Assembly: GCF_902832845.1 (NCBI RefSeq)
Contig: NZ_CADFDB010000001.1
Span: forward strand, 124,001 to 188,000
DNA from: Burkholderia metallica
Lineage (GTDB): Bacteria; Pseudomonadota; Gammaproteobacteria; Burkholderiales; Burkholderiaceae
Direction of reading: 5' to 3'
DNA length: 64,000 bases
Part shown: positions 3,756 to 28,554 of the stretch, piece by piece
Position numbering within the stretch: the first letter of the stretch is position 1
Layout of the letters: each line of letters starts with the position of its first letter
Position numbers and translations under genes: made by a program
Notes under the pieces: generated by a model
What the model saw: only the letters and a program-made list of their open reading frames with translations
Told to the model about the DNA's origin: nothing
Database searches by the model: none

Positions 3756-4006
3756 CGGTATGAGTGGACAGCGGTCGAGACGGGTTGCAAACCGACGTTG
3801 GAGTCGGGGCGGATTCCGGAGGAAGCGGTGCTGGCGGGCAGCTTGTCGTTAGGATACTCGCGATGTCGCGCGATTCGCAAAGGCAGATCTGGTTTTTAAC
3901 CGGATGCCAGGTGCGGGGCGGGCGTCATGTTCATCGATGGCAAGCGGTCGCTTCATGCACCAGCAGAATTGGCGGTTCCGAGCTGACCAACGGGCGTCGA
4001 ATCCGC

Positions 4007-5365: not shown

Positions 5366-6702
5366 GCGCGTTCCATCAGCCGGCGCGGAATCGACAGGAT
5401 CAGCGCGGCCGCGGCGAACAGCGTGAATGCGAGCAGCGCCACGCCCAGCTCGGTGCTGCCGGTCAAGCCCGTCGCGTAGCCCATCAGCGTCGGGCCGATG
5501 AATCCCGCGACGGCCGCGCCGATGTTGACGAGCCCCGCGCCGCCCGCCGCCGCCTCGCCGGCGAGAATCCGCGACGGCAGGCTCCAGAACATCGCCAGCG
5601 TGCACATGATGCCGGCCACGCCGACGGTCAGGCACGCGACGGCGAGCACCGGATGCGCGTGCATGCCGAGGCTCGCGAGCAGTGCGATGCCGCCGAGCGT
5701 GACGGGCAATGCGGTATGCCAGCGGCGTTCGCCGGTGCGCACCGAATGCTGCGCATTGGCGACCATCGCGACCGATGCGACGAGATACGGAATCGCGCTG
5801 ACGAGGCCGACCGCGAGGTTGCTGAGCGTGCCGAGCGCCTTGATCATCGTCGGCATCCAGAACACGAGGCCATAGTTGCCGACGTTGTAGAGGAACGAGG
5901 TCGCGACCAGCAGCCACAGCGTCGGCTCGCGCAGCGCGGCACCGAGGCGTGTGCGCTTGCCTGCGGATTCCTGCGCCATTTCCGCGTGAATCAGGCGCTT
6001 GTCCGCGTCGGTCAGCCACGCGGCGTCGTCGACGCGTTCGGTCACGCGGGCGAGCAGATACAGGCCGAGCACGATCGCGGGCAGCCCTTCGAGCAGGAAC
6101 ATCCATTGCCAGCCGCGCAGCCCGAAGCCGCCGTGCGTCGCGTCCATGATCCAGCCGGACAGCGGCGCGCCGACGATCACGCCGAGCGGCATCGCGAGAA
6201 ACAGCAGCGCCATGACCTTGGCCAGCCGGTGCGACGGGAACCACACGCTGAAATACGCGATCACGGCCGGAAAGAAGCTCGCCTCGGTCACGCCGAGCAG
6301 GAAGCGCAGCGCGTAGAAGCTGGCCGTGTCGTGCGTCGCGAGCGTGGCGACCGACACGACGCCCCACGACAGCATCGAGCCGGCCAGGCAGCGCTTCACA
6401 CCGATCCGGCGCACGAGCCAGCCGGCCGGCACCTGAAGCAGCAGGTAGCCGACGAAGAACAGCCCCGCGCCGACACCGTACGCGGCGTCCGACAAATGCA
6501 GGTCGTTCACCATCTGCAGCTTCGCGAAGCCGACGTTCACGCGGTCGAGGTAGCCGAAGAAGTAGCAGACCAGGATCAGCGGGATGATGCGCCGGCTCAG
6601 GCGTGCGTACAGCGCGTCGACGTCGGGCGCGCAGGCGCTTGCGCCGTGGTCCGTGCCGGTCTGGATGTCGCGCGGCGCGGCGGCGCCATGGGAATTCGTC
6701 AT
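5362..6702 (-). CDS. MFS transporter, anion:cation symporter (ACS) family
   Basis: 446 residues with twelve predicted membrane spans. N-terminal features are RRIIPLILVCYFFGYLDRVNVGFAKLQM and LFFVGYLLLQVPAGWLVRRIGVKRCL (quoted in pieces: YFFGYLDRVNVG; QVPAGWLVRRIG), both characteristic of the ACS family (tartrate, phthalate, hexuronate and similar organic-anion porters). It overlaps the amidase by four bases and follows the D-aminoacylase by about 80 bases, so all three probably share a transcript. It would import the organic anion or N-acyl compound that the two hydrolases act on. The substrate is not deducible from the sequence. Confidence 0.85.
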   Translation of the reverse strand: MTNSHGAAAPRDIQTGTDHGASACAPDVDALYARLSRRIIPLILVCYFFGYLDRVNVGFAKLQMVNDLHLSDAAYGVGAGLFFVGYLLLQVPAGWLVRRIGVKRCLAGSMLSWGVVSVATLATHDTASFYALRFLLGVTEASFFPAVIAYFSVWFPSHRLAKVMALLFLAMPLGVIVGAPLSGWIMDATHGGFGLRGWQWMFLLEGLPAIVLGLYLLARVTERVDDAAWLTDADKRLIHAEMAQESAGKRTRLGAALREPTLWLLVATSFLYNVGNYGLVFWMPTMIKALGTLSNLAVGLVSAIPYLVASVAMVANAQHSVRTGERRWHTALPVTLGGIALLASLGMHAHPVLAVACLTVGVAGIMCTLAMFWSLPSRILAGEAAAGGAGLVNIGAAVAGFIGPTLMGYATGLTGSTELGVALLAFTLFAAAALILSIPRRLMERA

Positions 6703-6783
6703 CGTGACTCCGTGCGGGTTGAGCCGCGAGGCCGTTGCGTCGTGCGTGGCCTCACGCGGGCGGGGCGGAAGGAGGGCATGCGA

Positions 6784-8220
6784 CTAGACCGCGCGGCGCA
6801 GCGCGAGGCCCGGGCGTACGCCGGTATGCCGGCCGTGTTCGAGCACCGCGCGGCCGTTGACGAACACGTGCTCGATGCCTTCGGGGCGCAGCGTCGGGCT
6901 GGCGAACGTTGCGCGGTCGATCACGCGCGCGGGGTCGAATACGACGAGATCGGCGTAGTAACCGACCGCAAGCCGCCCGCGCTCGGCGATGCCGAACTGC
7001 TCGGCCGTGAGGCCCGTCATCTTGCGCACGGCCGCTTCGAGCGGAAACAGCTTGCGTTCGCGCGAGAATTCGCCGAGCACGCGCGGGAACGTGCCCCACA
7101 GGCGCGGATGCGGGCGCGCATCGTTCGGCAGACCGTCGGAGCCGACCATCGCCAGTTCGTGCCCGATGATGCGCTCGACGTCGGCTTCGTCCATCACGAA
7201 GTAGATCGCGCCGGCCGGTTGCAACGCGTCGATCGCGGCGTCGATCGAATCGCCGAACAGCGGCAGCAGCTCGTGGAAATCGCGGCCCGCGAGTTCGGGG
7301 TGCGGCCGCGACCACGCGAGCAGCACGCGCGACGACTGGCGGATGCGGTCGGCGCGCAGCATCGTCGACGTGGCCGGATACGGATGGCAGTCGAGGCACA
7401 GCGGTTGGTGCGCGCGCTGTGCGTCGATATGCGCGAGCGTTTCGGCCGAGCGGCCGTGATTGGCCTTGCCGGCGACCTTGTGGTGCGACAGCACGACGCG
7501 CACGCCGAGCGCGCGCCCGATCGAGAACGCCTCGTCGAGCGACGCGATGATCGCGTCGGTCTCGTCGCGCAGGTGGGTGGCGAACACGCCGCCCGTCTCG
7601 CGCAGCGGCGCGCACACGTCGATCAGTTCGTCGGTCGTGGCCGCCATCGCCGGCGGATAGAACGTGCCCGACGATACGCCGAACGCGCCGGCGGCCATCG
7701 CATCGCGCACGTCGGCGGCCATCGCGGCGATTTCCGTGGGGCTGGCGGCGCGGCCGAGGTCGGCCATGTGCCGCACGCGCAACGTCGAATGACCGACGAG
7801 GGCCGCGGTGTTGACGGCGGAGGGCGCGGCATCCAGCGCGTCGAGATATGCGCCGAACGACGCGAAGCGAAAGTGCTGCCATGCGCCGAGTAGGTCGAGC
7901 GGCTGCGGCACGTCCTGTTGCGCGAGCAGCGGCGCGAGGCTGATCCCGCAGTTGCCGGCGATCACGGTCGTGACGCCCTGTGCAACCTTGGGCTCGACGT
8001 CCGGATCGGTCAGCACGAACGCGTCGTCGTGCGTGTGGCTGTCGATGAATCCGGGGGCGACGACCTGGCCGGCCGCGTCGATCACGCGCGCGGCGCTCGC
8101 ATCGCGCAGGTCGCCGATCGCGGCGATGCGCGCGCCGGTCACGCCGAGATCGGCGTCGAAGCGCGCGGCGCCCGTGCCGTCGATCAGCGCGCCGCCGCGC
8201 AGGATGACGTCGAAATGCAT
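6784..8220 (-). CDS. N-acyl-D-amino-acid deacylase (D-aminoacylase)
   Basis: 478 residues. I chose the ATG at 8220 because AGGAG precedes it at good spacing and the family begins at MHFDVILRGG; the frame is open further upstream. Metal and catalytic residues of the amidohydrolase fold are present: His62 and His64 in DSHTHDD, and Cys91 in AGNCGIS. Their spacing matches the His67/His69/Cys96 set described for Alcaligenes D-aminoacylase. FATHLRDE and VVLSHHKV supply later ligands. The enzyme removes the acyl group from N-acyl-D-amino acids. It lies between a LysR gene and an MFS transporter on the same strand, and the released D-amino acid could be oxidised by the DadA-like protein downstream. 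Confidence 0.85.
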   Translation of the reverse strand: MHFDVILRGGALIDGTGAARFDADLGVTGARIAAIGDLRDASAARVIDAAGQVVAPGFIDSHTHDDAFVLTDPDVEPKVAQGVTTVIAGNCGISLAPLLAQQDVPQPLDLLGAWQHFRFASFGAYLDALDAAPSAVNTAALVGHSTLRVRHMADLGRAASPTEIAAMAADVRDAMAAGAFGVSSGTFYPPAMAATTDELIDVCAPLRETGGVFATHLRDETDAIIASLDEAFSIGRALGVRVVLSHHKVAGKANHGRSAETLAHIDAQRAHQPLCLDCHPYPATSTMLRADRIRQSSRVLLAWSRPHPELAGRDFHELLPLFGDSIDAAIDALQPAGAIYFVMDEADVERIIGHELAMVGSDGLPNDARPHPRLWGTFPRVLGEFSRERKLFPLEAAVRKMTGLTAEQFGIAERGRLAVGYYADLVVFDPARVIDRATFASPTLRPEGIEHVFVNGRAVLEHGRHTGVRPGLALRRAV

Positions 8221-8367
8221 GATGGCTCCTCGTGTCCCCGCCGGCCTGGGCGGCCGGCTTCCGGGGGATGAGTTGCCGATCGTCCCCGGCCAATAACCGG
8301 CCGTCCAATGCGAGTGCGCAAGCGATTCATGCGCGGCAGTCATCAATGCCGGCGTGCCGCGCGAGGG

Positions 8368-9255
8368 TCAGGCGAGCGATGCCTTCACCAGCGCGTGCAG
8401 GTCGCTCGCGAAGCTGGACATCGAGATCGTGCGGTGCCGCACGATGCCGACGGTGCGCTCGATCGTCGGGCTCGCGATCGGGACGGCGCGCACGGCAGGC
8501 GTGCCGTACGCGCGCAGCGCGCTTTCCGGCAGGATCGCGCAGCCGACGCCCGACGCGACGAGCGCCGCGACGCTCGAAATGTGCTCGACCTCGTAGAACC
8601 AGCGGGTCCGCACGGCTTCCTGGCCCATCAGCATTTCGAGCAGCAGGCGGTTGCCGCTGTCGCGTCCGCCGATGATCAGCTTCGCCTGCCGCAGCTCGCC
8701 GAGCGTGACGCTGTCGGCGCGCGCGAGCGGGTCGCCGTCGTGCACCGCGAGCACGTAGCGATCGGTGAACAGCGGCTCGAACAGCAGCTCGTCGTCGTCG
8801 CCCGGATGCAGGCTCACGCCGAATTCGGCGATGCCGGCGCGCACCTGCGACAGCACGAAGTCGTGATTGCCGTCGAGGATCTGCACGGCGACCTGCGGGT
8901 ATTTGGCCGCGTAGTGCCGCAGCACGTCGGGCAGTGCGCGCGCGACGACGGTCGGGATCGCGGCGAGCCGCACCTTGCCGTAGCGCTTCTCGGCGATTTC
9001 CCGGATCGACGACAGCATCGTGCCGAGCTGCGCGATCTGTTCGCGCGCCATCGGCAGGAACTGGCGGCCCACGCCCGTCAGCGTGACGCTGCGGGTCGTG
9101 CGCTGGAACAGCTCGACGCCGAGCGTCTGCTCGAGTTTCTGGATGCGCCGTGACAGGCCCGGCTGCGTGAGGTGCAGCTTCTCCGCGGCACGATGAAACG
9201 TGCCGAGCTCCGCCACGGCGACGAACGCTTCGAGTTCCGAGTTTTCGACTTTCAT
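8368..9255 (-). CDS. LysR-family transcriptional regulator
   Basis: 295 residues from the ATG at 9255; the open frame continues upstream without LysR homology. The N-terminal winged helix-turn-helix reads ELEAFVAVAELGTFHRAAEKL then LTQPGLSRRIQKLEQ, followed by a LysR substrate domain with RYGKVRLAAIPTVVA and GVGCAILPESAL. It lies between the AMDase-like gene and the D-aminoacylase, all in the same direction. It therefore probably controls the aminoacylase/transporter/amidase genes just downstream, or the whole catabolic run. The effector is unknown. Confidence 0.85.
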   Translation of the reverse strand: MKVENSELEAFVAVAELGTFHRAAEKLHLTQPGLSRRIQKLEQTLGVELFQRTTRSVTLTGVGRQFLPMAREQIAQLGTMLSSIREIAEKRYGKVRLAAIPTVVARALPDVLRHYAAKYPQVAVQILDGNHDFVLSQVRAGIAEFGVSLHPGDDDELLFEPLFTDRYVLAVHDGDPLARADSVTLGELRQAKLIIGGRDSGNRLLLEMLMGQEAVRTRWFYEVEHISSVAALVASGVGCAILPESALRAYGTPAVRAVPIASPTIERTVGIVRHRTISMSSFASDLHALVKASLA

Positions 9256-9364: not shown

Positions 9365-10090
9365 TCAGAGCGTCGCGAACAGCTTGCCCCAGCGCGTGAG
9401 CCCGCGCGTATCGACGCCCGCCATCCGCAACGCCTTCCACACCACGGTCGCGACCGTGTCATAAGCGGCGATCCCGGTCGCCTGCTCGAACGGCCCGACG
9501 AGATGCGCGGCATGCAGGTTCGTGCAGAACGTCGCCACCGCATCGGGTCGTGCTTGCGCGGTCTTGCGCATCAGCGCGGCGAGCTGCGTGTCGGGCACAT
9601 CCGCGAAGCTGGCGTTCTCGCGCAGCCCGAGATGCTGCTCGGCCACGCAATCGATGCCGAGCTGCGCGTACTGCCGCACGATCCGCTGCTGTACGTCGTC
9701 CAGATACGGCGTGACGAGGCCGAGCCGCCGCACGCCGGTGCGTTCGAGCAACTCGTTCAGCGCGAGTACCGATGTCGTCGCCGCAATGCCGGTCGCTTTC
9801 TCGATGCTGCGACACAGCGCGGCGTCGCGCTCGAAGCCGAGCCAGCCGGCCGACGTGCCGCTCCAGCCGATCACGTCCACGCGCGCGTCGGCGAGCTGGC
9901 GGGCCGCGACGAGGATGCGCGTCGCGTCGAACTGGTCGAGCGCGGCCTCGGTGAGCGCAATCTCGGTGACGGTGAAGCGCGCGAAATGCACGCTGACGCC
10001 CGGCAGCCCGGCGACGATCGCGGTCGTCAGCGGTTCGAGCGCGGTGTTCGACGACGGCGTCAGGATGCCGATGCGGATGCGCGGGTTCAT
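9365..10090 (-). CDS. Maleate isomerase / arylmalonate decarboxylase family enzyme (AMDase-like site)
   Basis: 241 residues, of the Asp/Glu racemase superfamily fold. Racemases and maleate isomerases of this fold use two cysteines. Here the N-terminal position carries Gly78-Thr79-Ser80 (IGWSGTSAGW), while the C-terminal cysteine is present (Cys189 in ATFCTNLHA). Tyr129 in TPYLDDV sits where the fold's oxyanion-hole tyrosine is expected. One cysteine plus a GTS loop is the arrangement known from arylmalonate decarboxylase (Gly74, Thr75, Ser76, Tyr126, Cys188), so decarboxylation or a related one-base reaction is more likely than classic racemisation (inference). It lies just downstream of the amidohydrolase at 10105 (14-base gap), so the two are probably cotranscribed. 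Confidence 0.7.
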   Translation of the reverse strand: MNPRIRIGILTPSSNTALEPLTTAIVAGLPGVSVHFARFTVTEIALTEAALDQFDATRILVAARQLADARVDVIGWSGTSAGWLGFERDAALCRSIEKATGIAATTSVLALNELLERTGVRRLGLVTPYLDDVQQRIVRQYAQLGIDCVAEQHLGLRENASFADVPDTQLAALMRKTAQARPDAVATFCTNLHAAHLVGPFEQATGIAAYDTVATVVWKALRMAGVDTRGLTRWGKLFATL

Positions 10091-10104
10091 CGCATGGCCC
10101 CGCG

Positions 10105-11487
10105 TCAGTCGAGCAACTGCCGCACGGCATCGACCGCGGCGCGGCGCAACGCAGCCAGGTCGAGGCCCGGAATCTCGCCGTTGTCCACCACGACGCGGCC
10201 GTTCACGACGGAGTACTTCACCGGCGCCGGTTCGCCCGCCGCAACCGGCGCGATCGCGTAGTCGTGGAAGCCGTTGAAGCGCGGCCCGCTCACGTCGTAC
10301 AGCACGAGATCGGCCGCTTGCCCGACGTCGAGCGTGCCGACCGCATCGAGCCCGAGCACGCGTGCGCCGCCTTGCGTGCCCCAGTGCAACACCTCCTCGG
10401 CGGTGGTTGCCGCCGCGCCGTGCGCCGCGCGATGCACGAGCCATGCGAAATTCGCTTCGTGCGTCATGCTGCCCGATTCGTTCGACGCGACGCCGTCGAC
10501 GCCGAGCGAGACCGGCACGCCGGCCGCTGCCATGCGCGGCGCGGGCGCGATGCCGCTGCCGAGCCGTGCATTGCTGACGGGGCAGTGCGAGCAGCCGGTG
10601 CCCGTTTCCGCGAGCATCGCGATTTCGTTCGCTTCGAGATGGACCAGGTGCGCGAACCATACGTCCGGGCCGAGCCATTCGTGTTCGGCGACGAACTCGA
10701 CCGGCAGCTTGCCGTAGCGTTCGCGGCAGAAATCGACGTAGCGCGTCGTTTCCGACAGATGCGAATGCAGCCGCAGGCCCATCCGGCGCGCCGCGCGCGC
10801 GACCTCGGGCAGCAGCTCGGGCGGCAGCGAGAAGGTCGGCGTGGTCGGCGCGACGACCACGCGGCGCATCGAGGCCGCGCCCGCATCGTGATAGCGTGCC
10901 TTCAGCCGCTCGATGTCGGCAAGCATCTGGTCGAGCGTCTCGGGCTGCAGCGCGGTGCCGGCGAAGCCGGGGTGATCGCCTGCCGCCTGCAGCGCGCCGC
11001 CGCGGCACAGCACGAAACGCATCCCGAAGCCGGCCGCTTCGTCGAACAGCAGGTCGCCGGTCTCGGTCGTGCCGCCCGCGTGATACAGGTAGTGATGATC
11101 GGCGCAGGTCGTCACGCCCGACAGCAGCAGTTCCGCGAAGCCGAGCCGGGCCGCGATGTGTGCGAGGTCCGGCGTGAAGCGCGCGACGCGCGGATACGGC
11201 ACCGCGGCAAGCCATTCCTGCAGGTCCGCGTTGATGCCGGCCGGCACCGCTTTCAGCAGGTTCTGGAACAGGTGGTGATGCGTGTTCACCCAGCCCGGGT
11301 AGACGACGCAGTCGGCGGCGTCGATCACGCGCTCGCCGGGTAGCGGCGCGAGGTCGGGCGCGATCGTGTCGATCCGGCCGTCGCGCACGCGCAGGTCGGT
11401 GCGGCCGAGCCGCGCGGCGTCGCCCGCACGGCCGCTCATGACCGCGATCGGGTTGCGGATCAGCAGTGAAGAAGAAGGAACGCTCAT
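10105..11487 (-). CDS. TRZ/ATZ-type amidohydrolase, 8-oxoguanine deaminase-like
   Basis: 460 residues with a GAGGAG ribosome site before the ATG at 11487. The cytosine/guanine-deaminase branch of the amidohydrolases is marked by PGWVNTHHHLFQNLL (first metal histidines), LRLHSHLSETTRYVD, FAHLVHL, HCPVSNARLGSG and SLGVDGVASNES. The TTCADHHYLYH segment resembles bacterial 8-oxoguanine deaminases, which convert 8-oxoguanine to urate. S-adenosylhomocysteine or aminotriazine hydrolases are alternatives. The gene directly downstream of it is the AMDase-like enzyme, and upstream lies an NCS2 nucleobase permease. That pairing supports deamination of an imported N-heterocycle. Confidence 0.75.
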   Translation of the reverse strand: MSVPSSSLLIRNPIAVMSGRAGDAARLGRTDLRVRDGRIDTIAPDLAPLPGERVIDAADCVVYPGWVNTHHHLFQNLLKAVPAGINADLQEWLAAVPYPRVARFTPDLAHIAARLGFAELLLSGVTTCADHHYLYHAGGTTETGDLLFDEAAGFGMRFVLCRGGALQAAGDHPGFAGTALQPETLDQMLADIERLKARYHDAGAASMRRVVVAPTTPTFSLPPELLPEVARAARRMGLRLHSHLSETTRYVDFCRERYGKLPVEFVAEHEWLGPDVWFAHLVHLEANEIAMLAETGTGCSHCPVSNARLGSGIAPAPRMAAAGVPVSLGVDGVASNESGSMTHEANFAWLVHRAAHGAAATTAEEVLHWGTQGGARVLGLDAVGTLDVGQAADLVLYDVSGPRFNGFHDYAIAPVAAGEPAPVKYSVVNGRVVVDNGEIPGLDLAALRRAAVDAVRQLLD

Positions 11488-11591
11488 GGTCGGGTCTCCT
11501 CGGATTCGGTTCGGGATTCGGAAGGGGAGGCTGGCCGGCCGTCATGCGCCGCATGGCGGCGCGGTGCCGCACGCGGCGCGGCCGGGCGCCG

Positions 11592-12965
11592 TCAGTCGCA
11601 CTCGCGCGCCATCGGGCTGCCGTGCGCGGCGTCGGCATGTGCGTGCGCATCGACCGGGTCGGTCGCCGGCACGCCGTTGAGCAGCGCGTTGAGCAAGACC
11701 GACACGAGGCACGCGAGCACGACGCCGCTGTGCAGGAACGGCTGCGTCCAGTCGGGCATGTGCGCGAACACCTTTGGCGCCATCACCGGAATCAGCGCGG
11801 TCGCGATCGTGAAGCCGACGATCAGCACGTTGTAGCGGTTGTTTTCGAAATCGACTTTCGCGAGCGTCTGCACGCCGGCCGCGACGACCACGCCGAACAT
11901 CGCGATGCCCGCGCCGCCGAGCGCGGCCGACGGTGTCGACGCGACGATCGCGCCGATCTTCGGCACCAGCGCGACGACGCACATCAGCACGCCGCTCACC
12001 GCGACGATCCAGCGGCTGCGCACGCCGGTCAGGATCACGAGCCCGACGTTCTCCATGAACGCGATGAACGGGAACGCGGCGAACGTTCCGGCGATCGCGC
12101 TCGCGACGCCGTTCGCACGCAGCCCGCGCACGACGTCCTCCTCGCTCACCTGCTTCTCGACGATGTCGCCGATCGCGACGAACAGGCCCATCGACTCCAC
12201 CATCTGCACGATCATCACGACGACCATCGTCAGCACCGGCACGATCGCGAACACCGGCGTGCCGAAGTGGAACGGGTAGGGCACGGTGAACCACGGCGCG
12301 GCCGCGACGTTCGTGAAGTTGCCCATCCCGAGCGCGATCGCGAGCAGGCTGCCGGCGACGAGCCCGATTAGCACCGACAGGTTGCGCAGGAACGCATTCG
12401 CGAAACGGTTGACCGCGAGGATCACGACCGCGACGACGAGCGCGACCGCGAGGAACGACAGCTCGCCGAACTGCAGCTTCGCCGCGTCGCCGCCGCCGGC
12501 CCACTGGTACGCGACCGGAAACAGCTGCAGCCCGATCACGGTAACGATGCAGCCCGTCACGACCGGCGGGAACAGGCGGCGCAGCCGGCCGACCAGCGGC
12601 GCGGCGAAGGTCGTGATGATGCCCGCGCCGATCACCGCGCCGCACACGCCGGCGAACCCCACGCCCGGCGTCAGGCCGATCGCGATCACGGGGCCGACGC
12701 TGCTGAACGCGACGCCCTGCAGGATCGGCAGCCGCACGCCGAGCTTCCAGACACCGACCGTCTGCAGGATCGTCGAGATGCCGGAACAGAACAGCGCGGT
12801 GCTGATCAGCACGGTGGTGTCGGCGGGCGACATCTTCAGCGCCGACGCGACGATCAGCGGCACCGCGATCGCGCCGATATACGCGACGAGCATGTGCTGC
12901 AGGCCGAGCGTCAGCATCTGGCGGCGCGGCAGGACCCGATCGACGGGATGTGAGGCAGAGTTCAT
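11592..12965 (-). CDS. NCS2-family nucleobase:cation symporter (xanthine/urate-type permease)
   Basis: 457 residues. The ATG at 12965 is preferred over one six bases upstream because AGGAG then lies eight bases before it. Family landmarks are LGLQHMLVAYIGAI near the N-terminus and the NCS2 signature FMENVGLVILTGVRS in the second half, with about 12-14 hydrophobic spans. NCS2 proteins import purines, urate or uracil with protons or sodium. Its position between the CobW-type gene and the 8-oxoguanine deaminase-like gene suggests it imports the heterocyclic substrate of this cluster. Confidence 0.85.
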   Translation of the reverse strand: MNSASHPVDRVLPRRQMLTLGLQHMLVAYIGAIAVPLIVASALKMSPADTTVLISTALFCSGISTILQTVGVWKLGVRLPILQGVAFSSVGPVIAIGLTPGVGFAGVCGAVIGAGIITTFAAPLVGRLRRLFPPVVTGCIVTVIGLQLFPVAYQWAGGGDAAKLQFGELSFLAVALVVAVVILAVNRFANAFLRNLSVLIGLVAGSLLAIALGMGNFTNVAAAPWFTVPYPFHFGTPVFAIVPVLTMVVVMIVQMVESMGLFVAIGDIVEKQVSEEDVVRGLRANGVASAIAGTFAAFPFIAFMENVGLVILTGVRSRWIVAVSGVLMCVVALVPKIGAIVASTPSAALGGAGIAMFGVVVAAGVQTLAKVDFENNRYNVLIVGFTIATALIPVMAPKVFAHMPDWTQPFLHSGVVLACLVSVLLNALLNGVPATDPVDAHAHADAAHGSPMARECD

Positions 12966-13026
12966 GGGCATGTCTCCTGAGGTTCGTTATCGGGCGGGCG
13001 CGCGATGCGCCCGCCTGGCGTGCCCG

Positions 13027-14142
13027 TCAGGCCGCGACCGGCGCGGCGAGACAGGCATGGAAACGGTCGGTCAGCGCGGCGCGATCGAGATCGCGGCCGA
13101 TGAAAACGATGCGCGACGAGCGCGGCTCGCACCCCCACGCCTGCGCGGCGCGCAACTCGATCACGCCGTGCACGCCCTGCAGCACGTAGCGCTGCGCGCG
13201 GCCCTGCACGGCGAGGATGCCCTTCATCCGGAACAGGTTCGCGGTGTCGGCGTGGCGCAGCTCGCCGAGCCAAGCTTCGAGCGCGTCGAGATCGATGTCG
13301 GCTTCGACTTCGATGCCGACCGACGACACGCTTTCGTCGTGTTCGTGGTGGTCGTGATCGTCGTCGTGTGCGTGCGCGGCGTGATCGTCGTGCGCAGGGT
13401 CGTGGCTGTCGTCATGCGTGTGCGCGTGTTCGTCCGCATGCGCGGCGTCGGCGTGCAGGCCGTCGCTCTCGACGAGAATCTGCGCGAATTCGTTCGCGCC
13501 GATGCCGAGGATGCGGTCGAGATCGACCTGCGCATAACTCGACGTGACGATCTCCGCCGTCGCGTTGAGCCCGCGCAGCCGCGCGGTCAGTGCGTCGACA
13601 TCCGGCGCGTCGACGAGGTCGACCTTGTTGATCACGATCCGGTCCGCGCAGACGATCTGGTCGACCGCCTGGTTGTCGCGGCCGTCGAGCACGAGATCGT
13701 CGAGGTGCGCGCGGATATGTTTCGCGTCGACCATCGTGACGACCGCGTCGAGCGCGACTTCCTTCGCGATCGGATCGTCGAGGAAGAAGGTCTGCGCGAC
13801 CGGATACGGATCGGCGAGCCCGCTCGTCTCGACGATGATGTGATCGAGCCGGTCGGGCCGCGCGACGAGCATCCGCACGATCCGCACGAGATCCTCGCGC
13901 ACCGCGCCGACGCAGCACACGCAGCCGTTCGTCATCTCGTAGATTTCCTCGGTCGATTCGAGCACGAGGCCGCCGTCGATGCCGATCTCGCCGAACTCGT
14001 TCTCGATCACCGCGATCTTGCGGCCGTGCTTCTCGCGCAGGATGTAGTTCAGCAGCGTGGTCTTGCCCGCGCCGAGAAAGCCTGTGAGCACGGTGACCGG
14101 AATCTTCTGGACGTCGCTGTGGGTGGTGTGGATGTGGGTCAT
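13027..14142 (-). CDS. CobW/P47K-family GTPase metallochaperone with His-rich loop
   Basis: 371 residues. The start at 14142 overlaps the stop of the ubiX-like gene (ATGA). Visible motifs are Walker A GFLGAGKT (residues 21-28), the family metal site CVCC (Cys74, Cys76, Cys77), NKVDLVD for guanine recognition, and a CobW C-terminal domain with [12 protein letters not shown]. Between the two domains lies a very His/Asp-rich stretch (roughly residues 245-285) with repeated HAHTHDD, HDPAHDD and [12 protein letters not shown] elements. COG0523 proteins load zinc, cobalt or iron into client enzymes. Being coupled to ubiX/ubiD and two amidohydrolases, it probably serves the metal-dependent enzymes of this cluster rather than general zinc stress. 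Confidence 0.85.
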
Positions 14143-14753
14143 GATGCGTCTCCGTTGAGTCGGTTGGGCTGCCGGTTCGGCTGTGATGCGGTTTCTTTCC
14201 AGCGATGGACGGTGCGGGAATCGAGGTCGAACAGGTCGAGCACGCGGCCGAGCGTGTGATCGATCATCTGGTCGAGCGAAGCGGGGCGCGCGTAGAACGC
14301 CGGCACCGGCGGCGCGACGATCGCGCCCATCTCCGTGACGGCGGCCATGTTGCGCAGATGCATGAGCGTGTACGGCGTCTCTCTCGCGAGCAGCACGAGC
14401 CGGCGGCGCTCCTTCAGCACGACGTCGGCCGCGCGCGCGATCAGGCCCGACGACAGGCCGCTCGCGATTTCGGCGAGCGTCTTCATCGAGCACGGCGCGA
14501 CGATCATCCCGAGCGTGCGGAACGAGCCGCTCGAAACCGGCGCGGCGATGTCGTCGCTGCGGTACAGCACGCTCGCGAGCGCGGCGACGTCGGACAGCTT
14601 GAAGTCGGTCTCGTGCGTCATCGTCAGCGCGGCGGCGCGCGACACGACCACGTGCGTCTCGATGTCGAGCTCGCGCAGCAGCGCGAGCAGCCGCATTCCG
14701 TACACGAAGCCGGACGCGCCGCTGATGCCGACCACGAGCCGCCGCGCGCTCAT
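14139..14753 (-). CDS. ubiX: UbiX-like flavin prenyltransferase
   Basis: 204 residues from the ATG at 14753, overlapping the UbiD gene by four bases (ATGA) and CobW by four bases. The flavoprotein fold begins [17 protein letters not shown]. The later [26 protein letters not shown] and [15 protein letters not shown] (quoted as conserved patches) are typical of UbiX/Pad1 proteins. UbiX attaches a dimethylallyl group to reduced FMN, making the prenylated FMN that UbiD decarboxylases need. A dedicated copy next to a UbiD gene is common in catabolic clusters, so this is likely not the housekeeping ubiquinone copy. The C-terminus has a poorly conserved Asn/Pro-rich tail. Confidence 0.85.
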
Positions 14754-16144
14754 CGCGCGGCTCCGCCGAGCCGGGCGATCGCCTGCGCGGCGCGCTGCAT
14801 CGCGGCGTCGCCCACACGCGCGCGCACGCCGTCGAAGTGCGAGCCGCGCGTCGCGTCGATGCCCATCCGTGACGTCGTGCCGTCGGCCGACGACGACGGA
14901 TCGAGCGGGCTGCCCGGTAGCCCGTCGACGACGAACAGGTCGCGGTGCGGCTGGAAGTGCGTCGCGATCGCCCACAGCACCTGCGCGTCGTCGGTGATGT
15001 CGACGTCGCTGTCGACCGCGACGACGTTCTTCAGGTACGGGTCCCAGCCGAGCAGCGCGAGCATGATCTGGCGCGCTTCGCCGTCGCGCGACTGCTTCAG
15101 CGCGACGTAGCAGTGAAAGTGCGTGCCGGAGTTCGGGTAGTGAATGGCGATGACCGACGGAAAGCGCGCCTTCAGCTTCTCGCTCATCTCGGCTTCGCGC
15201 GGCAGCCGCGCGAGCGTCAGATGCTCCGCGTACGGGCCGCCGACCACGTCGACGAGCCACGCGTCGTCGCGCCGCATCATCGCGTCGATGCGCAACACGT
15301 TGTTGGTCGAGCGGTCCGACGAATAGCCGGTGAATTCGCCGAACGGGCCTTCTTCGGCATGCGCGTCGGGATCGATCGTGCCTTCGAGCACGAACTCGGC
15401 GGCGGCGGGCACGCCGATGCCGTGGCGCGGCGTGCGCACGAGCTGCAGCGGCGCGCCGAACAGGCCGCCCGCGATCGCGCGCTCGTCCGCACCGAACGGC
15501 AAACGCGCGGCGGCCGCGAGCATGAACAGCGGATGCGCGCCGATCACCATCGCGACTTTCAGCGTGTCGCCGCGCGCCTTCGCGGTCTGCAGCATGCGCC
15601 ACAGATGGCCGCGCGAATGCAGGCTCGTCGCCAGCGCGTTGCGCGCATGCGGCATCGAGCGGTGGTAGCTGAGGTTCGCGACGCCCGTCACCGGATCTTC
15701 GGCGACGATCACCGCGTTGGTCACGTACGGCCCGCGATCGGTTTCGAAGTGGCGGATCATCGGCAACCGTGCGAGATCGACCGCATCGCCTTCGACGACG
15801 TGATCGAGCACCGGGCCGCGCGGCACGACGACCGGCGCGACGGGCGCGTTCGCCCGCTGCTGCCATGCGTCGAACAGCCCGTTCGCATCGACGCCGAACA
15901 ACCGGCCGATCCGCGTGCGGCAAGCAAAGACGTTGGTGACGAGCGGCGTCGACAGGCCGTCGATGCGCTCGCAGACGAGCATTTCGTGCCGGCCGCGCGC
16001 AGCGAGCGACGCGACGACGGCGGTGACGTCCTGGTCGGCGGACAGCGGCTGTGCGATCGTCAGCACGTCGTCCGGAAAGTGTTCGCGATACGCGGTCGCG
16101 AAGTGATGGAAATCCTGCTGCTCGGCAAAAAGACTGGACGCCAT
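14750..16144 (-). CDS. UbiD-family prenyl-FMN-dependent (de)carboxylase
   Basis: 464 residues from the ATG at 16144. The frame stays open upstream, but UbiD similarity starts at [15 protein letters not shown]. Catalytic and cofactor residues seen in fungal Fdc1 have counterparts here: Asn157 and Arg162 in NLSYHRSM, and Glu265 and Glu270 in [11 protein letters not shown]. Such enzymes reversibly decarboxylate aromatic, heteroaromatic or alpha,beta-unsaturated acids. The gene is translationally coupled to its ubiX partner and lies directly downstream of two amidohydrolases. With an NCS2 permease and a deaminase in the same run, a heteroaromatic carboxylate is a reasonable guess, but the substrate cannot be read from sequence. 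Confidence 0.85.
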
Positions 16145-16224
16145 GATGCACTCCGTCGGATACGGAAGAGGAAAGGCCGGACCGCGCGCAGGTGGCGGCA
16201 GGACGCGATCCGGCTGCCGGCGCG

Positions 16225-17130
16225 TTACACGTAGGTCGCCGTCAGGCGCTTCTGCGCTTCGTCGAGATCCTTCGGCGGCCGGGTCGGCTCGATGCCGACG
16301 AGGCGGGCGATGTTGTTGCCCATGTAGTCCTCGAGGCCGTCCTCGTCGAGATCCATCCCCTGCGGCGCGGGCCCGCACAGCATCTCCAGCTCGCGCAGCC
16401 ACATGCCGGGCTCGTTCGGCGGCGAATCGGTGCCGAACACGATCTTGTTGCGCGGCAGCTCGCGGGCGAACTCGACGATCCGCGACTGGTAGCACCAGCC
16501 CGATTCGCAGTACACGTTCGGCGTATCCATCGCCATCCAGAACGCTTCGAACGAGTAGTTTCCGCCCGTCTGGATTCCGAAGTGACCGATGATGAAGTTC
16601 ACCATCGGAAACTCGCGGATGATCGGGTAGAACTGCGTCGGGATCGTGTACGGGCCGTCACCGGTGTGGATCAGCACGACGATGTTGTACTTCGCGCAGA
16701 CCTTCATCGCGGGGCGCAGCCAGTCGAGCGCGCGATCGGGCCGGTAGCCGTGCATGTTCGCGTGCAGCTTCACCATCTTGAAGCCGTACTCCTTGATGTG
16801 GAATTCGAGCTCCGCCGCGCCGTTCTCCGGGCCCCAGCGCGGGTTGTACGTGAAGTTGCCGATGAAGCGGTCCGGGTATTTCTGCGTGAGTTCGGCGATG
16901 TACGCCATGTAGTCGCGGATGCCTTCGCGGCCGCGGCGGTTGCCGTCGCGATAGCCGGTGTTGCCCGGCGGCGGCTGGATGAAGCCCATGTCGATGCGGC
17001 GCGGCTTGCCGTTGATGATGTAAGGGCCGTCCATCATCTTCAGCAGGCGTTCGCCGGTGAACGGTTCGCCGGTGTGGCGCCACGCCTCGTCGACGAGGTT
17101 GGTCGGGTGCAGGTGCGTATCGATGATCAT
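16225..17130 (-). CDS. Amidohydrolase-2 family protein (intact metal site), first of two tandem paralogs
   Basis: 301 residues. The N-terminus MIIDTHLHP carries the HxH metal pair (His6, His8). Further ligands fit HTGDG, IIGHFGIQTGG and the late FGTDSPPNEPG. The ACMSD/gamma-resorcylate decarboxylase family has this layout and includes both non-oxidative decarboxylases and hydrolases. It is very similar along its full length to the protein encoded at 17167-18072, so the pair arose by tandem duplication. The two genes are separated by 36 bases and are followed by ubiD. Its reaction is unknown; the family and the neighbours suggest decarboxylation or hydrolysis of a ring compound. Confidence 0.8.
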   Translation of the reverse strand: MIIDTHLHPTNLVDEAWRHTGEPFTGERLLKMMDGPYIINGKPRRIDMGFIQPPPGNTGYRDGNRRGREGIRDYMAYIAELTQKYPDRFIGNFTYNPRWGPENGAAELEFHIKEYGFKMVKLHANMHGYRPDRALDWLRPAMKVCAKYNIVVLIHTGDGPYTIPTQFYPIIREFPMVNFIIGHFGIQTGGNYSFEAFWMAMDTPNVYCESGWCYQSRIVEFARELPRNKIVFGTDSPPNEPGMWLRELEMLCGPAPQGMDLDEDGLEDYMGNNIARLVGIEPTRPPKDLDEAQKRLTATYV

Positions 17131-17166
17131 GCAATGCTCCGGAATCGGGAGAGAGGGGCGCGGGCG

Positions 17167-18072
17167 TCAGGCGGCGGCAAGCAGCGCCTTCGCTTCGTCG
17201 ACGGTGCGCGGCGCGGGCGTCGGTTCGAGACCGATCATCCGGGCCGTGTTGTTGCCGAGGTAGTCCTCGAGCGTGTCCTCGTCGAGATTCATCCCTTGCG
17301 GCGGATCGAAGCAGAGCACTTCGAGCAGGCGCAGCCACATGCCGGGCTCGTTCGGCGGCGTGTCTGAGCCGAACAGGATCTTGTGCTTCGGCAGCACCTT
17401 CGCGAATTCGACGATGCGCGACTGCAGGCACCAACCGGATTCGCAATACACGTTCGGCAGGTCCATCGCGAGCTGGAACGGCTCGAAGCAGTACACGCCG
17501 CCCGTCTGCACGCCGAAGTGCGCCATGATGAAATTGACGGTCGGGAATTCCTTGATCATCGGCACCCACTCGGTCGGGATGCTGTACGGGCCGTCGCCGG
17601 TGTGCAGCTTCACGAGCACGCCGAGTTCCGCGCATTTCTTCAGCGCGGGGCGCAGCCAGTCGAGCGCGCGATCGGGGCGATACGCGTGCATGTTGGCCTG
17701 GAACTGCACCATCTTGAAGCCGAGCTTGCGCACGTAGTGATCGATCGCATTGACGCCGTTCTCCACGCCGCAGCGCGGGTTGTAGACGAAGCAGCCGATG
17801 AAGCGGTCGGGATGTCTGCGCACCATCTCGACCGTGTACGCCATGTATGCGTCGATCGATTCGGTGCCCGACTTTTCGCCGTCGGTATAGGTATAGATGG
17901 TGTTGCCTTGCGGCGGCTGGATGAATGCCTTGTCGACGCGGCGCGGCTTGCCGTTGATGAGGAACGGGCCGTTCATCGTCTCGATCAGGCGCTCGCCGGT
18001 GAACGGCGGGCCGTCGTGACGCCACGCGAGGTCGACGAGATTCGTCGGGTAACAGCTGGTGTCGATGATCAT
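17167..18072 (-). CDS. Amidohydrolase-2 family paralog lacking the HxH metal motif
   Basis: 301 residues, collinear with the protein at 16225-17130. It begins MIIDTSCYP: the residues matching His6 and His8 of the sister protein are Ser6 and Tyr8, so the HxH metal pair is gone. The other putative ligand motifs remain (LHTGDG, MAHFGVQTGG, FGSDTPPNEPG). The reading frame is intact and composition is ordinary, so this is not a decaying pseudogene. It may be a non-catalytic partner of the sister protein or may use an altered metal site (inference). It is the first gene of the leftward cluster, with the divergent LysR gene at 18314. Confidence 0.8.
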   Translation of the reverse strand: MIIDTSCYPTNLVDLAWRHDGPPFTGERLIETMNGPFLINGKPRRVDKAFIQPPQGNTIYTYTDGEKSGTESIDAYMAYTVEMVRRHPDRFIGCFVYNPRCGVENGVNAIDHYVRKLGFKMVQFQANMHAYRPDRALDWLRPALKKCAELGVLVKLHTGDGPYSIPTEWVPMIKEFPTVNFIMAHFGVQTGGVYCFEPFQLAMDLPNVYCESGWCLQSRIVEFAKVLPKHKILFGSDTPPNEPGMWLRLLEVLCFDPPQGMNLDEDTLEDYLGNNTARMIGLEPTPAPRTVDEAKALLAAA

Positions 18073-18313
18073 CTACTCGATCTCCTTGAGAGGAACCGGA
18101 AAAGCCGGTTGCCGGATCGCGGGCAGGCACGTCGATGAAGCGACCCTGTCGGTCGGATTCATGCGGCCTTTTGCAAGGCGCCTTTTTTGGCGCCTTCCCC
18201 TCGCCGGCATCGAGTGACACACTTCGACGTGCACTGCTGCTTGGGACCGAGTGTCACCAGCCGAATGTGCTCTGTACAATATTTTTTACTGACGTTCTTG
18301 ATACGTTTGCGAT
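18073..18313. promoter_or_regulatory. Divergent control region between amidohydrolase operon and LysR gene
   Basis: This 241-base region separates two divergent genes. It holds a pair GTGACAC (18214-18220) and GTGTCAC (18251-18257) forming an inverted repeat. Both copies sit in a CGAGTGWCAC context, so they also read as a near-direct repeat. The right copy is followed by a TACAATATT element before the LysR ATG. A separate 8-bp hairpin, AAGGCGCC/GGCGCCTT with a six-T loop (18175-18196), lies on the operon side and would be in the operon leader. Binding of the LysR protein here is inferred from the usual divergent arrangement. Confidence 0.45.
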
Positions 18314-19204
18314 ATGGACATGCGTGTGTTGCGTTACTTCGCGGTGCTGGCCGACGAACTGCATTTCGGGCGCGCAGCCGCGCGGCTCCATATCTCGCAG
18401 CCGCCGCTGAGCCAGCAGATCCGGCTGCTGGAAGAGCAGCTCGGCACCGCGCTGTTCGTGCGCTCGCAGCATCGCGTCGAACTGACCGAGGCAGGGAAAA
18501 CACTGAAGGAACAGGTGCCGCTGATCGTCGCGCAGTTCGATCGCGCGATCGATCTCACGCGTTGCGCGGGGCGCGGCGAGGTGGGGCGCCTCGCGGTCGG
18601 CATCATCAGCTCGGCGATGGTCGCGCCGATTCCGCACGCGCTGCGCGTGTTCGCCGAACGCCATCCGCACGTGCACTGGTCGCTGCACGAGATGACGCCG
18701 GCCGCGCAGATCGACGCGCTGAAGGAGAAGCGGCTCGACGTGTGCTTCTTCCGGCTGTTCCAGGACGATCCGTCGATCCGCAGCGAGATCGTCGTGCGCG
18801 AGACGGCCGTGGCCGTGCTGCCGCTGGGCCATCCGCTCGCGGCGCGCGATGCGATCGCGCTCGGCGAACTGGCCGGCGAGCAGTTCGTGTCGTTCGGACT
18901 CCGGCATTCGCAACTGGCGCAATTCCTGCAGCAGAGCTGCGTCGATGCGCGCTTCACGCCGCGCATCGCACACGAGGTCGTCGAGGTGCACACGCTGCTG
19001 TCGCTGGTGCGCGAAGGGTTGGGCGTCGCGCTGCTGCCGGCGTCGTCGCGGCAGATTTCGACCGGCGGCGTCGCGTTCGTGCCGTTGCGGCCGCCGGCGC
19101 TGGAAGTGCCGCTGCAGGCGCGCTATCGCGCGGACGACACGTCGGCGGTGCTCGGCGCGTTTCTCGACACCGTGCGCGAGGTCGCGGCCGAATTCGGCGT
19201 TTGA
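18314..19204 (+). CDS. LysR-family transcriptional regulator, divergent to the UbiD/amidohydrolase operon
   Basis: 296 residues. The HTH region reads MRVLRYFAVLADELHFGRAAARL and ISQPPLSQQIRLLEEQLG, followed by a substrate domain with VGRLAVGIISSAM, the usual hinge, and a C-terminal SLVREGLGVALLPAS. This is the CatR/BenM/CbnR-like branch that often governs aromatic catabolism. Its divergence from the amidohydrolase/UbiD operon, with an inverted repeat in the shared control region, makes it the likely activator of that operon. Confidence 0.85.
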   Translation: MDMRVLRYFAVLADELHFGRAAARLHISQPPLSQQIRLLEEQLGTALFVRSQHRVELTEAGKTLKEQVPLIVAQFDRAIDLTRCAGRGEVGRLAVGIISSAMVAPIPHALRVFAERHPHVHWSLHEMTPAAQIDALKEKRLDVCFFRLFQDDPSIRSEIVVRETAVAVLPLGHPLAARDAIALGELAGEQFVSFGLRHSQLAQFLQQSCVDARFTPRIAHEVVEVHTLLSLVREGLGVALLPASSRQISTGGVAFVPLRPPALEVPLQARYRADDTSAVLGAFLDTVREVAAEFGV

Positions 19205-19217
19205 TGCGGCGCGTGAG

Positions 19218-20111
19218 TCAGCGCGCGAGCGATTGCGCGACGAGCGCGCCGATCGCGTCGATCAGCGGCTTCACGCGTGCATGCCGCTCGCGCGGCCAGA
19301 TCGCATGCAGGTTGTAATGCGTCGGAATCGCGATCGTGCAGAGCTCGACGAGCCGGCCGTCGCGCAGCGCGTCGGCGGCGAGCAGCCCGCGCACCAGCCC
19401 GGCGCCGAGCCCTGACGCGAGCGTCGCGACCAGCCCCGCCGCGTTGTCGAACACGGCGATCGTCTGCGGTTCGACGGGCTCGAGCCCTGCCGCTTCGAGC
19501 CACGGTATCCACGACCGCTTCGTATAGCCGAGCAGCGGCAGCGCCAGTACCTGTTCGGGCGCGAGCGGCGCGGTGAGCCCGTGGCGTTCGAGCAGCGCGG
19601 GCGCGGCCATCGCGGTCAGCCGGTCGGGGCAGACCAGCGCGCTGTCCACGCCCTCCCATTCCCCGTAGCCGTAGCGCAGCGCAACATCGACGCGATCGAA
19701 CGCGTCGCGGTCGTGGCGCGGCGCGGACAGCACCGTCAGCGTCGTGCCGTCGAGCGTGCGCATCAGTTCCGGCAGCCGCGCGGGCAGCCAGCCCTGCATC
19801 AGTTCCGGATCGACGTCGAGCCGCAGCGACGGCCCCGTCGTGCGGCCCTTCACCGACGACAGCGCGCGATCGATCTGTTCCATCCCGTCCGCCAACTGGT
19901 TCGCGAACAGCGTGCCCGCATCGGTCAGGATCACGCGGCCGCCGGCGCGTGCGAACAGCGGCTGGCCGATGAATTCCTCGAGCGAGCGGATCTGCTGGCT
20001 GATCGCGCTGTGCGTGAGCGCCAGCTGGCGCGCCGCACTCGAAAAACTGCCGACCCGCGCGGCTTGCAGAAACGCCTGCATCGACTGGATCGAAGGGTAT
20101 CGCTTGAGCAT
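19218..20111 (-). CDS. LysR-family transcriptional regulator, GcvA-like
   Basis: 297 residues. The N-terminus reads [19 protein letters not shown], then [21 protein letters not shown] and [18 protein letters not shown], the typical GcvA/AmpR branch. The substrate domain includes [19 protein letters not shown]. The gene is convergent with the LysR gene at 18314 (13-base gap) and divergent from the molybdenum dehydrogenase genes at 20241, which it probably regulates. The control region between them is 129 bases; I see no clear operator. Confidence 0.85.
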
Positions 20112-20240
20112 CTGTTAGTCCGACTGACAGGGATTCGACGAAATGATCGCTGGCGCGCCCGCGCTTCGCGTTTCGATAATGCGTCGACACCGCGCAACGG
20201 ACGCGGGCCGACACCCTCAATGCGAATCTGGAGACAGCGC

Positions 20241-20735
20241 ATGATCGACATCGTCGTGAACGATACACGCCATTCGCTCGCGAATGTACCGGAGGATATG
20301 CCGTTGCTGTGGGTGCTGCGCGACCGGCTCAAGCTCACCGGTACGAAGTTCGGCTGCGGCAAGGGGCTGTGCGGCGCGTGCACCGTGCATCTCGAAGGGC
20401 AGGCCGTGCGTTCGTGCCTGATTCCCGCCGCTGCCGCGAACGGGCGGCGCATCACGACGATCGAGGGGCTGTCGCCGGACGGGCGCCATCCGCTGCAGCT
20501 CGCGTGGGTCGCCGAGGACGTGCCGCAATGCGGCTATTGCCAGCCGGGGCAGCTGATGCAGGCCGCCGCGCTGCTGAAGGGCGGGCAGCCGGTGGACGAC
20601 GCGGCGATCGTGCAGGCGATGTCGGGCAACGTTTGCCGCTGCGGCACGTATGCGCGGATTCATCGCGCGATCAAGCGTGCGGCGTCGGGCGATCCGGCGC
20701 TTGCGGCCGCCGTTGAATCCGCGAAGGATGCGTGA
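20241..20735 (+). CDS. Two-[2Fe-2S] small subunit of a molybdenum-containing dehydrogenase (IorA-like)
   Basis: 164 residues, with GGAGAC upstream of the ATG at 20241. The first cluster motif is [13 protein letters not shown] with a further Cys in VRSCLIP. The second domain has [14 protein letters not shown] and [12 protein letters not shown]. This is the standard electron-transfer subunit of the isoquinoline 1-oxidoreductase / aldehyde oxidoreductase family. It passes electrons from the molybdopterin subunit encoded immediately downstream (one base between stop and start) to an external acceptor. Confidence 0.9.
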
Positions 20736-20736
20736 C

Positions 20737-22983: not shown

Positions 22984-23269
22984 CGTGGCGACGGAACGTA
23001 TGACGTTTGACGCGCGCGCTGCTGCAATCCGCTGATCAATCCACCGACGTCGCGACCGGATCGACGTCGGCAGGCGGGTTCGGTCGAATCGCGCGGCGCC
23101 ACGCCGATTCCGCATACGTTCCGATGATTCTCGCGGGTGTTTCCCACTGGTTGGTCATGCGAATTTTTACCTAAGATGAAGCCATCATGCGCGTAATTCG
23201 GTGCCTGCACGCGCATGGATGGAGGCGGCAGGAGGCAGCGCCGGAGCGACGCCAGCGGATGTTGCCATC

Positions 23270-28498: not shown

Positions 28499-28515
28499 GA
28501 CGGAGTACCCGCCCG

Positions 28516-28554
28516 CGCACCCGCCCCGTCCGAAACCCGGACGGGGCGGGTGCG
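28516..28554 (+). terminator. Strong hairpin after the liv binding-protein gene (attenuator or mRNA 3' stabiliser)
   Basis: A perfect 17-bp inverted repeat: arm 28516-28532 and arm 28538-28554 with a five-base loop. The arms contain CCCGCCCCGTCCG and its complement. No T-run follows, so it is probably not a full intrinsic terminator. In this position it would protect the binding-protein mRNA end or reduce read-through into livH. Confidence 0.7.

Follow-up and report, generated by a model that had tools for sequence, protein, structure and literature searches.

A Conserved UbiD–Amidohydrolase Gene Cluster in Burkholderia metallica as a Candidate Pterin Catabolic Operon

Introduction

Bacterial chemistry can take isoxanthopterin through 7-oxylumazine and tetraoxypteridine to xanthine-8-carboxylate (the EC 5.5.1.3 step) and on to xanthine. 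McNutt is said to have described a bacterial pteridine pathway in the 1960s that included tetrahydroxypteridine cycloisomerase (EC 5.5.1.3), an enzyme for which we know of no gene, and the abstract on Arad3529 reportedly refers to a route of pterin degradation not yet described. Arad3529 and an enzyme of Variovorax sp. F1 have been reported as pterin deaminases; in the accessible part of that paper the products are deaminated folate and pteroate, with nothing further down, and in its main text none of these words occurs: xanthine, decarboxylase, operon, gene cluster, isoxanthopterin or ring (PMC9513972). Here we analyze a gene cluster of Burkholderia metallica (GCF_902832845.1, contig NZ_CADFDB010000001.1, positions 124,001–188,000 of the forward strand; this whole 64,000-nt stretch is called the window). 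Its eight minus-strand genes (window positions 9365–18072) encode, in order, two amidohydrolases (a1 and a2), UbiD, UbiX, a cobW-type GTPase, an NCS2 permease, a deaminase and a protein resembling arylmalonate decarboxylase (AMDase). On balance, we lean towards the reading that the cluster is an operon for the catabolism of pterins (pteridines), with its product passing into purine degradation.

An open-literature search, judged mostly by title and abstract, returned no paper on this gene set or on the EC 5.5.1.3 pathway. An original prediction for this locus, made from its sequence, knew of no described pathway with such a set. Within our search that holds for the gene set; the idea of bacterial pterin degradation is partly known, as pterin deaminases have been published (PMC9513972, accessible part). 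What is new is the gene set itself, with its candidate genes for orphan steps.

Results

Conservation across Genomes

At E ≤ 1e-80, a search of 299 genomes sampled from the family detected UbiD in 63, which belong to 7 of 25 genera. We compared 60 of the 62 non-self contexts, leaving two out, and a1 and a2 adjoin ubiD in 59 of them; the sole exception (L020) is cut off within a2 by the end of its contig. When named genomes were scanned with an alignment of a2, 233 related stretches turned up, of which the best 80 were kept; these include Pseudomonas, Rhodoplanes, Herminiimonas, Massilia, Janthinobacterium, Rubrivivax, Variovorax and Ideonella. Flanks of 5.5 kb or more to either side of a2 were available for 56 loci from the first set and 64 from the second, after 4 of 60 and 16 of 80, respectively, had been set aside for shorter flanks; some genomes are common to both sets. 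Pooling the two sets with loci L063–L065 and three plasmid loci, and counting one locus per distinct a2 gene, left 101. All 101 distinct loci carry a1 and UbiD. CobW is present in 100, the large subunit of a molybdenum hydroxylase in 94, UbiX in 92, the NCS2 permease in 86, a deaminase in 71 (68 of the PRK12393 type and 3 of an alphaproteobacterial type) and the AMDase-like gene in 24.

The recurrence of the same gene set in many genera argues that this is not a chance neighborhood. We give almost no credence to the idea that these are unlinked genes without a common pathway, because the core is common to beta-, gamma- and alphaproteobacteria with its order changed and parts replaced, and because deaminase and UbiD co-occur (see below). 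The original prediction had proposed looking for this gene order in other Burkholderiaceae, and had named a lack of co-conservation among the neighbors as what would speak against it. The opposite was found, with a1 and a2 beside ubiD in all but one of the family loci, and a1 and UbiD at every locus anchored on a2. Its picture of a co-conserved catabolic unit combining import, deamination, decarboxylation, N-heterocycle hydrolysis and a metallochaperone-type GTPase is borne out to that extent.

The amidohydrolase pair is rare in even samples (E ≤ 1e-40, self included), occurring in 4 of 398 genomes across the phylum and 5 of 399 across the order, with two copies each. Plasmid matches comprise 182 places in 91 records, 74 of which are from Sinorhizobium (63) or Ensifer (11). 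In the Sinorhizobium locus L146, the cluster has a gene for a BMP-type binding protein nearby and is carried by a plasmid of 1.57 Mb, pSym. Carriers of the cluster include strains of Sinorhizobium meliloti and Cupriavidus necator other than 1021 and H16.

Two Caballeronia loci, L059 (= L110) and L125 (= L055), are composites with two transporters, in which an a1-a2-ubiD-ubiX-cobW core of a divergent type stands beside a regulator, permease and deaminase of the other type. L059 additionally has a second molybdenum hydroxylase.

The Deaminase and the Substrate Class

The window deaminase scores 801.7 bits against PRK12393 (cut-off 543). Against PRK08203, the 8-oxoguanine deaminase model, it reaches 435.8 bits (cut-off 532), and it also falls below the guanine deaminase cut-off. 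The original label of 8-oxoguanine-deaminase-like hydrolase is thus withdrawn. Deaminases of two cluster relatives score 655.8 and 676.1 bits with PRK12393, and 361.8 and 395.9 bits with PRK08203. The closest solved structure is 2paj (472 bits, against 307 for 3hpa and 289 for 7ww2); with two divergent relatives, the cluster deaminases of Janthinobacterium and of a metagenome-assembled genome, 2paj scores 525 and 505 bits. In the database, 2PAJ is named putative cytosine/guanine deaminase and 7ww2 8-oxoguanine deaminase/hydroxydechloroatrazine ethylaminohydrolase. We take 2PAJ to be Sgx9339a, the isoxanthopterin/pterin-6-carboxylate deaminase of Hall et al. 2010; in the open literature searched, only unrelated papers came up for 2PAJ/Sgx9339a. 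An APTT motif is found in 71 of 71 distinct cluster deaminases and, by alignment, in 2paj, and the corresponding residues are APCS in 3hpa and 7ww2. The stretches THHHLFQ and APTT are common to the window deaminase and 2paj in their alignment. Sargasso enzymes of this deaminase family act on isoxanthopterin and pterin-6-carboxylate, according to the accessible part of the source (PMC5270733).

We predict that the cluster deaminase is an enzyme of the isoxanthopterin/pterin-6-carboxylate type, and consider it likely that the substrate class is pterins and not a generic heterocycle acid. A different guanine-like substrate, for example an oxidised purine or a 7-deazaguanine carboxylate, would fit a deaminase superfamily that includes guanine and 8-oxoguanine enzymes, and NCS2 carriers that take purines. 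We regard it as improbable, given a deaminase that lies below both of those cut-offs and above that of PRK12393, with 2paj as its closest structure.

Deaminase orthologues (at least 67% identity) occur in 61 of the 63 UbiD-positive and 0 of the 236 UbiD-negative genomes of the family sample (Fisher P ~7e-62, which is inflated because relatedness is ignored). They share a contig with ubiD and lie within 16 kb of it in 57 of 61 cases, and within 5 kb in 38; in many Cupriavidus-type clusters the distance is about 11–14 kb. On the plasmids of Sinorhizobium (L146), Paracoccus (L147) and Ponticoccus (L148), a cytosine-deaminase-like amidohydrolase replaces the PRK12393-type enzyme. The alphaproteobacterial proteins are 66–68% identical to one another and score 228–252 bits against PRK07583 (below its cut-off of 403), and the Paracoccus protein gives only short matches to the window deaminase. 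Used as a query, this type reached the threshold in 0 of 64 counted loci of the named-genome set. The PRK12393-type deaminase was not found within the stretch at hand in three Rhodoplanes loci (L098, L099 and L102). The alphaproteobacterial substitution suggests that a ring deaminase is conserved by function.

One Twin Amidohydrolase Lacks the Metal Motif

Amidohydrolases of the ACMSD type (PF04909) have a metal-binding and catalytic pattern of HxH, His, His and Asp. The a2 protein conforms to it, with H6, H8, H155, H183 and D235 present in all 13 aligned a2 sequences and H-L-H in 115 of 116 distinct genes, the exception being a fragment at a contig end. In a1, the HxH is replaced by S-C-Y in 60 of 60 family-set sequences (the window included) and in 113 of 113 distinct a1 genes, and the later His, His and Asp positions are retained. 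Hence a1 and a2 are not two equal enzymes: the twin paralogs of the original prediction are there, but not as an equal pair. In ATCase-pDHO, an inactive dihydroorotase paralogue holds a partner enzyme. We think that a1 is probably a metal-less partner subunit in a heteromer with the metal-bearing a2. The predicted role of a2 is to open or contract a ring, and we put forward a1 and a2 as a candidate gene pair for EC 5.5.1.3.

UbiD and the Other Cluster Proteins

UbiD has the N, Rift and C domains and scores 289.6 bits against TIGR00148 (cut-off 244.85). The catalytic motif of UbiD enzymes is Arg-Glu-Glu, here R162, E265 and E270, which are invariant in 61 of 61 sequences. Its closest entries in the PDB are 6h6v/6h6x, followed by AnInD (7p9q); we take 6h6v to be HmfF. 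UbiX produces prenylated flavin mononucleotide (prenyl-FMN), the cofactor of UbiD. We predict that the cluster UbiD is a heteroaromatic acid decarboxylase, with xanthine-8-carboxylate as a candidate substrate. In the three Rhodoplanes clusters, UbiD is only 43–44% identical to that of the window, with a1 at 79–81% and a2 at 86–87%. The UbiD of these clusters appears to have been swapped with its function kept and the amidohydrolase pair retained. The B. metallica genome encodes a second UbiD (G000:C3:121238-121918, within a 565-residue frame), which scores higher against Pfam and is presumably the enzyme for ubiquinone.

The cobW-type GTPase scores below all the equivalog cut-offs listed for its matches (TIGR02475, 211.9 bits; NF008578, 207.0; NF038288 (ZigA), 177.6) and is predicted to supply zinc to metal-dependent enzymes. 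The NCS2 permease belongs to the xanthine-permease subfamily (TIGR03173, 466.7 bits; cut-off 414) and is a predicted importer of pteridines or purines. The AMDase-like protein passes the broader Pfam Amdase model and scores 76.7 bits against the arylmalonate decarboxylase model NF052327 (below the cut-off of 225). Its C189 aligns with one of the cysteines in arylmalonate decarboxylase, and 21 of 21 sequences keep C189, G78, C93 and C148. The gene is present as originally described. With 24 of the distinct loci carrying one, it is not a constant member, and we rejected a core role for it; it is an optional accessory.

The molybdenum hydroxylase, a predicted pteridine hydroxylase, comes in at least two subunit plans. 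Close to the N-terminus of the window's IorB-like subunit is a stretch, RRRFLK, that resembles a twin-arginine signal and suggests export. The other version, with an FAD subunit, probably acts inside the cell. The Paracoccus cluster also carries XdhC and a three-subunit enzyme of the xanthine dehydrogenase family. As the protein type varies among clusters, function seems to be what is conserved. Its presence at 94 of 101 distinct loci compares with 18 stretches matching molybdenum hydroxylase hidden Markov models, which we grouped as 10 genes, across the whole 7.55-Mb genome. Matches of at least 60% identity to the divergent and the second LysR regulator were found in 58 and 64 of 146 loci, respectively, duplicates included.

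Proposed Pathway

We infer substrates and the order of steps from the observed gene content, co-conservation, family membership, intact catalytic residues and loss of HxH in a1. The molybdenum hydroxylase, whose Tat-type version would act outside the cytoplasm, would hydroxylate pterin ring carbons, and the NCS2 permease would import the hydroxylated pterin. The deaminase would convert the 2-amino ring to its oxo form (isoxanthopterin to 7-oxylumazine), and hydroxylation, in an order relative to deamination that is not fixed, would give 2,4,6,7-tetraoxypteridine. The a1/a2 heteromer may then use metal-activated water to open the pyrazine amide, which would reclose to an imidazole and yield xanthine-8-carboxylate. 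UbiD, supplied by UbiX with prenyl-FMN, would decarboxylate this to xanthine, which would enter the urate pathway, and CobW would provide zinc. The reading is favored because each conserved gene would have a place in the chemistry from pterin to xanthine, and tetraoxypteridine and xanthine-8-carboxylic acid have the same formula (C6H4N4O4). The exact route via xanthine-8-carboxylate is more tentative than the substrate class, and we hold it at somewhat under even chances. The same reserve applies to the assignment of the two-gene amidohydrolase, with one metal-bearing and one metal-less member, to EC 5.5.1.3 and of UbiD to xanthine-8-carboxylate decarboxylation.

A link to purine catabolism is visible at locus L064 (the same stretch as L066), where genes for OHCU decarboxylase and HIUase lie upstream of a1, separated from it by one gene for an NMT1-type binding protein of a transporter. 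Also upstream are a polysaccharide-deacetylase-domain protein that looks like the allantoinase PuuE and an M20 protein that looks like an allantoate amidohydrolase. In a second genome of that family (G841), a distance of about 14 kb separates a1 from the OHCU gene. These genes bear on an alternative in which the input is pterin-6-carboxylate from folate breakdown. The deaminase and molybdenum hydroxylase would produce 7-oxylumazine-6-carboxylate, UbiD would remove the 6-carboxylate, and the amidohydrolases would hydrolyse the pyrazine without forming a purine. We judge this unlikely, since it leaves the urate genes of L064 and the xanthine-permease-type transporter unexplained. It does draw on a named substrate of such deaminases (PMC5270733, accessible part), on the ability of UbiD enzymes to handle heteroaromatic acids, and on fold neighbors of a2 that include LigY and probable 2-pyrone-4,6-dicarboxylate hydrolases.

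The AlphaFold2 model of a2 (pLDDT 80.7) is closest in fold to ACMSD-type enzymes. We take its neighbors LigY and the 2-pyrone-4,6-dicarboxylate hydrolases to be hydrolases. Several observations weigh against the pterin-to-xanthine reading, and the first is that most fold neighbors of a2 are non-oxidative decarboxylases, so that a2 might decarboxylate and not open a ring. The twins would then be an ACMSD-type decarboxylase (isoorotate decarboxylase-like) acting on a pyrimidine-fused carboxylate, with UbiD performing a second decarboxylation and the ring opened elsewhere. We place this somewhat below the pterin-6-carboxylate alternative: no other conserved core gene looks fit for ring opening or contraction, the identity of a2 to the 50 listed structures is 10–22%, and fold alone proves no function.

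Further points concern the completeness of the set. Within the stretch at hand, the molybdenum hydroxylase is absent from 7 of the 101 distinct loci, a deaminase of either kind from 30, the NCS2 carrier from 15 and UbiX from 9. The 67% identity threshold for deaminase orthologues was chosen after viewing the list, at a gap from 67% to 59%, and at most five candidates were scored per genome. Of the 61 orthologues, 4 sit on a different contig from ubiD and one is a fragment (G233, 214 residues, 74%). One core-bearing genome (G223) has no deaminase match at E ≤ 1e-100 genome-wide, and another (G137) has a 55% relative only, on another contig; its cluster contig (L030) stops after the NCS2 gene. 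OHCU genes near the cluster were seen in one family only, about 3 kb from a1 in one genome and about 14 kb in a second. Among the places listed for the remaining 64 of 66 cluster-bearing genomes, no OHCU gene was found within 20 kb of the cluster; a 24-bit match inside an 818-residue frame near the cluster of G152 was taken as chance. OHCU decarboxylase is present in 66 of 66 cluster-bearing genomes, and also in 29 of 30 UbiD-negative ones. Its presence is therefore uninformative, and we dropped it as support. Finally, the precedent for xanthine-8-carboxylate and EC 5.5.1.3 comes from older work, and by title and abstract we found no paper on the pathway.

Locus Layout and Neighboring Genes

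The originally described genes, their strand and position and the divergent LysR agree with the open reading frame positions and Pfam matches (Table 1), and the proposed ATGA coupling of ubiD, ubiX and cobW is seen as a 4-base overlap at each of the two junctions. Gaps are 36 bases between a1 and a2 and 80 between a2 and ubiD; the remaining ones are 55, 104 and 14 bases. The lower bound of 9365 stands. The upper one, 18072, does not, as the unit continues through two LysR genes and a two-subunit molybdenum hydroxylase (18314–22983), the latter overlooked in the original gene list. The LysR pair and the hydroxylase accompany the cluster in Burkholderia and relatives. G+C content is 0.683 for 9365–22983 and 0.679 for the whole window, so composition gives no sign of foreign origin.

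Table 1. Genes of the cluster and its extension, in window coordinates.
Feature	Length (residues)	Position	Strand	Evidence
Amidohydrolase 1 (a1)	301	17167-18072	-	Pfam Amidohydro_2
Amidohydrolase 2 (a2)	301	16225-17130	-	Pfam Amidohydro_2
ubiD, predicted prenyl-FMN-dependent decarboxylase	464	14750-16144	-	Pfam UbiD (three domains), TIGR00148
ubiX, flavin prenyltransferase	204	14139-14753	-	Pfam Flavoprotein; TIGR00421 and PRK06029 above cut-off
cobW-type GTPase	371	13027-14142	-	Pfam cobW and CobW_C
NCS2 permease	459	11592-12971	-	Pfam Xan_ur_permease, TIGR03173
Deaminase, PRK12393 family	460	10105-11487	-	Pfam Amidohydro_1, PRK12393, 2paj match
AMDase/Asp-Glu-racemase superfamily protein	241	9365-10090	-	Pfam Amdase
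Divergent LysR regulator		18314-19204	+	At least 60% identity in part of the clusters
Second LysR regulator		19218-20111	-	At least 60% identity in part of the clusters
[2Fe-2S] subunit of molybdenum hydroxylase (IorA-like)	164	20241-20735	+	Pfam Fer2_2, Fer2
Molybdopterin subunit of molybdenum hydroxylase (IorB-like)	751	20728-22983	+	Pfam MoCoBD_1, MoCoBD_2

Beyond the lower end lie genes for a LysR regulator (8368–9255), a D-aminoacylase-looking amidohydrolase (6784–8220) and an MFS carrier (5362–6702). A role for these three in the cluster was rejected, as they had 0 matches of at least 60% identity in the 146 loci, most of which span about 20 kb. A D-amino-acid dehydrogenase-like gene follows (2514–3755; below the PRK00711 cut-off). 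The genes in 2514–9255 are on one strand and are perhaps an island for utilisation of D-amino acids or N-acyl-D-amino acids beside the cluster. At the other end, directly after the molybdenum hydroxylase, is a DgcN/YfiN-type diguanylate cyclase (23215–25254; NCBIfam, 481.7 bits, cut-off 325). A Peripla_BP_6 binding protein and a LivH-type-looking permease frame (27380–29607) are perhaps part of a branched-chain amino acid-type ABC system, and a tRNA-Leu(GAG) lies at 40663–40747.

Discussion

Folates release pterins, which are widespread compounds, and in the open literature searched no gene set came to light that takes pterin breakdown past deamination. The cluster offers candidate genes for a ring contraction that has apparently been an orphan for about 60 years. 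If the reading is right, UbiD enzymes gain a new substrate class, purine or pteridine carboxylates, and a conserved amidohydrolase pair with one metal-site-less member is explained. On that reading, a complete and widespread gene set, carried in part on plasmids, would link pterins and the debris of folates to purine catabolism. The recurrence of the cluster on Sinorhizobium plasmids makes it testable in a standard laboratory organism.

Several known systems come close to parts of the cluster. The isoxanthopterin deaminase that we take 2paj to be is the nearest structure to the cluster deaminase, and the cluster enzyme sits in a ring-processing operon. Arad3529 and the Variovorax sp. F1 enzyme likewise deaminate pterin rings, as far as the accessible text goes, and the alphaproteobacterial clusters hold a broadly similar cytosine-deaminase-like enzyme. 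The predicted intermediates and the mass balance agree with EC 5.5.1.3 and the pathway attributed to McNutt, a match that we infer. The heteroaromatic decarboxylases 6h6v and AnInD share with the cluster UbiD its domains, R-E-E triad and UbiX partner, whereas the cluster enzyme is tied to twin amidohydrolases and a deaminase. ACMSD-type amidohydrolases (2,3- and 2,6-dihydroxybenzoate decarboxylases, LigW, LigJ and IDCase) resemble a2 in fold and metal-ligand pattern; a2, in contrast, stands at 10–22% identity and is always paired with an HxH-less paralogue. For that paralogue, ATCase-pDHO provides a precedent of an amidohydrolase without a metal site serving as a structural partner, although its subgroup and pathway are unrelated to those of a1.

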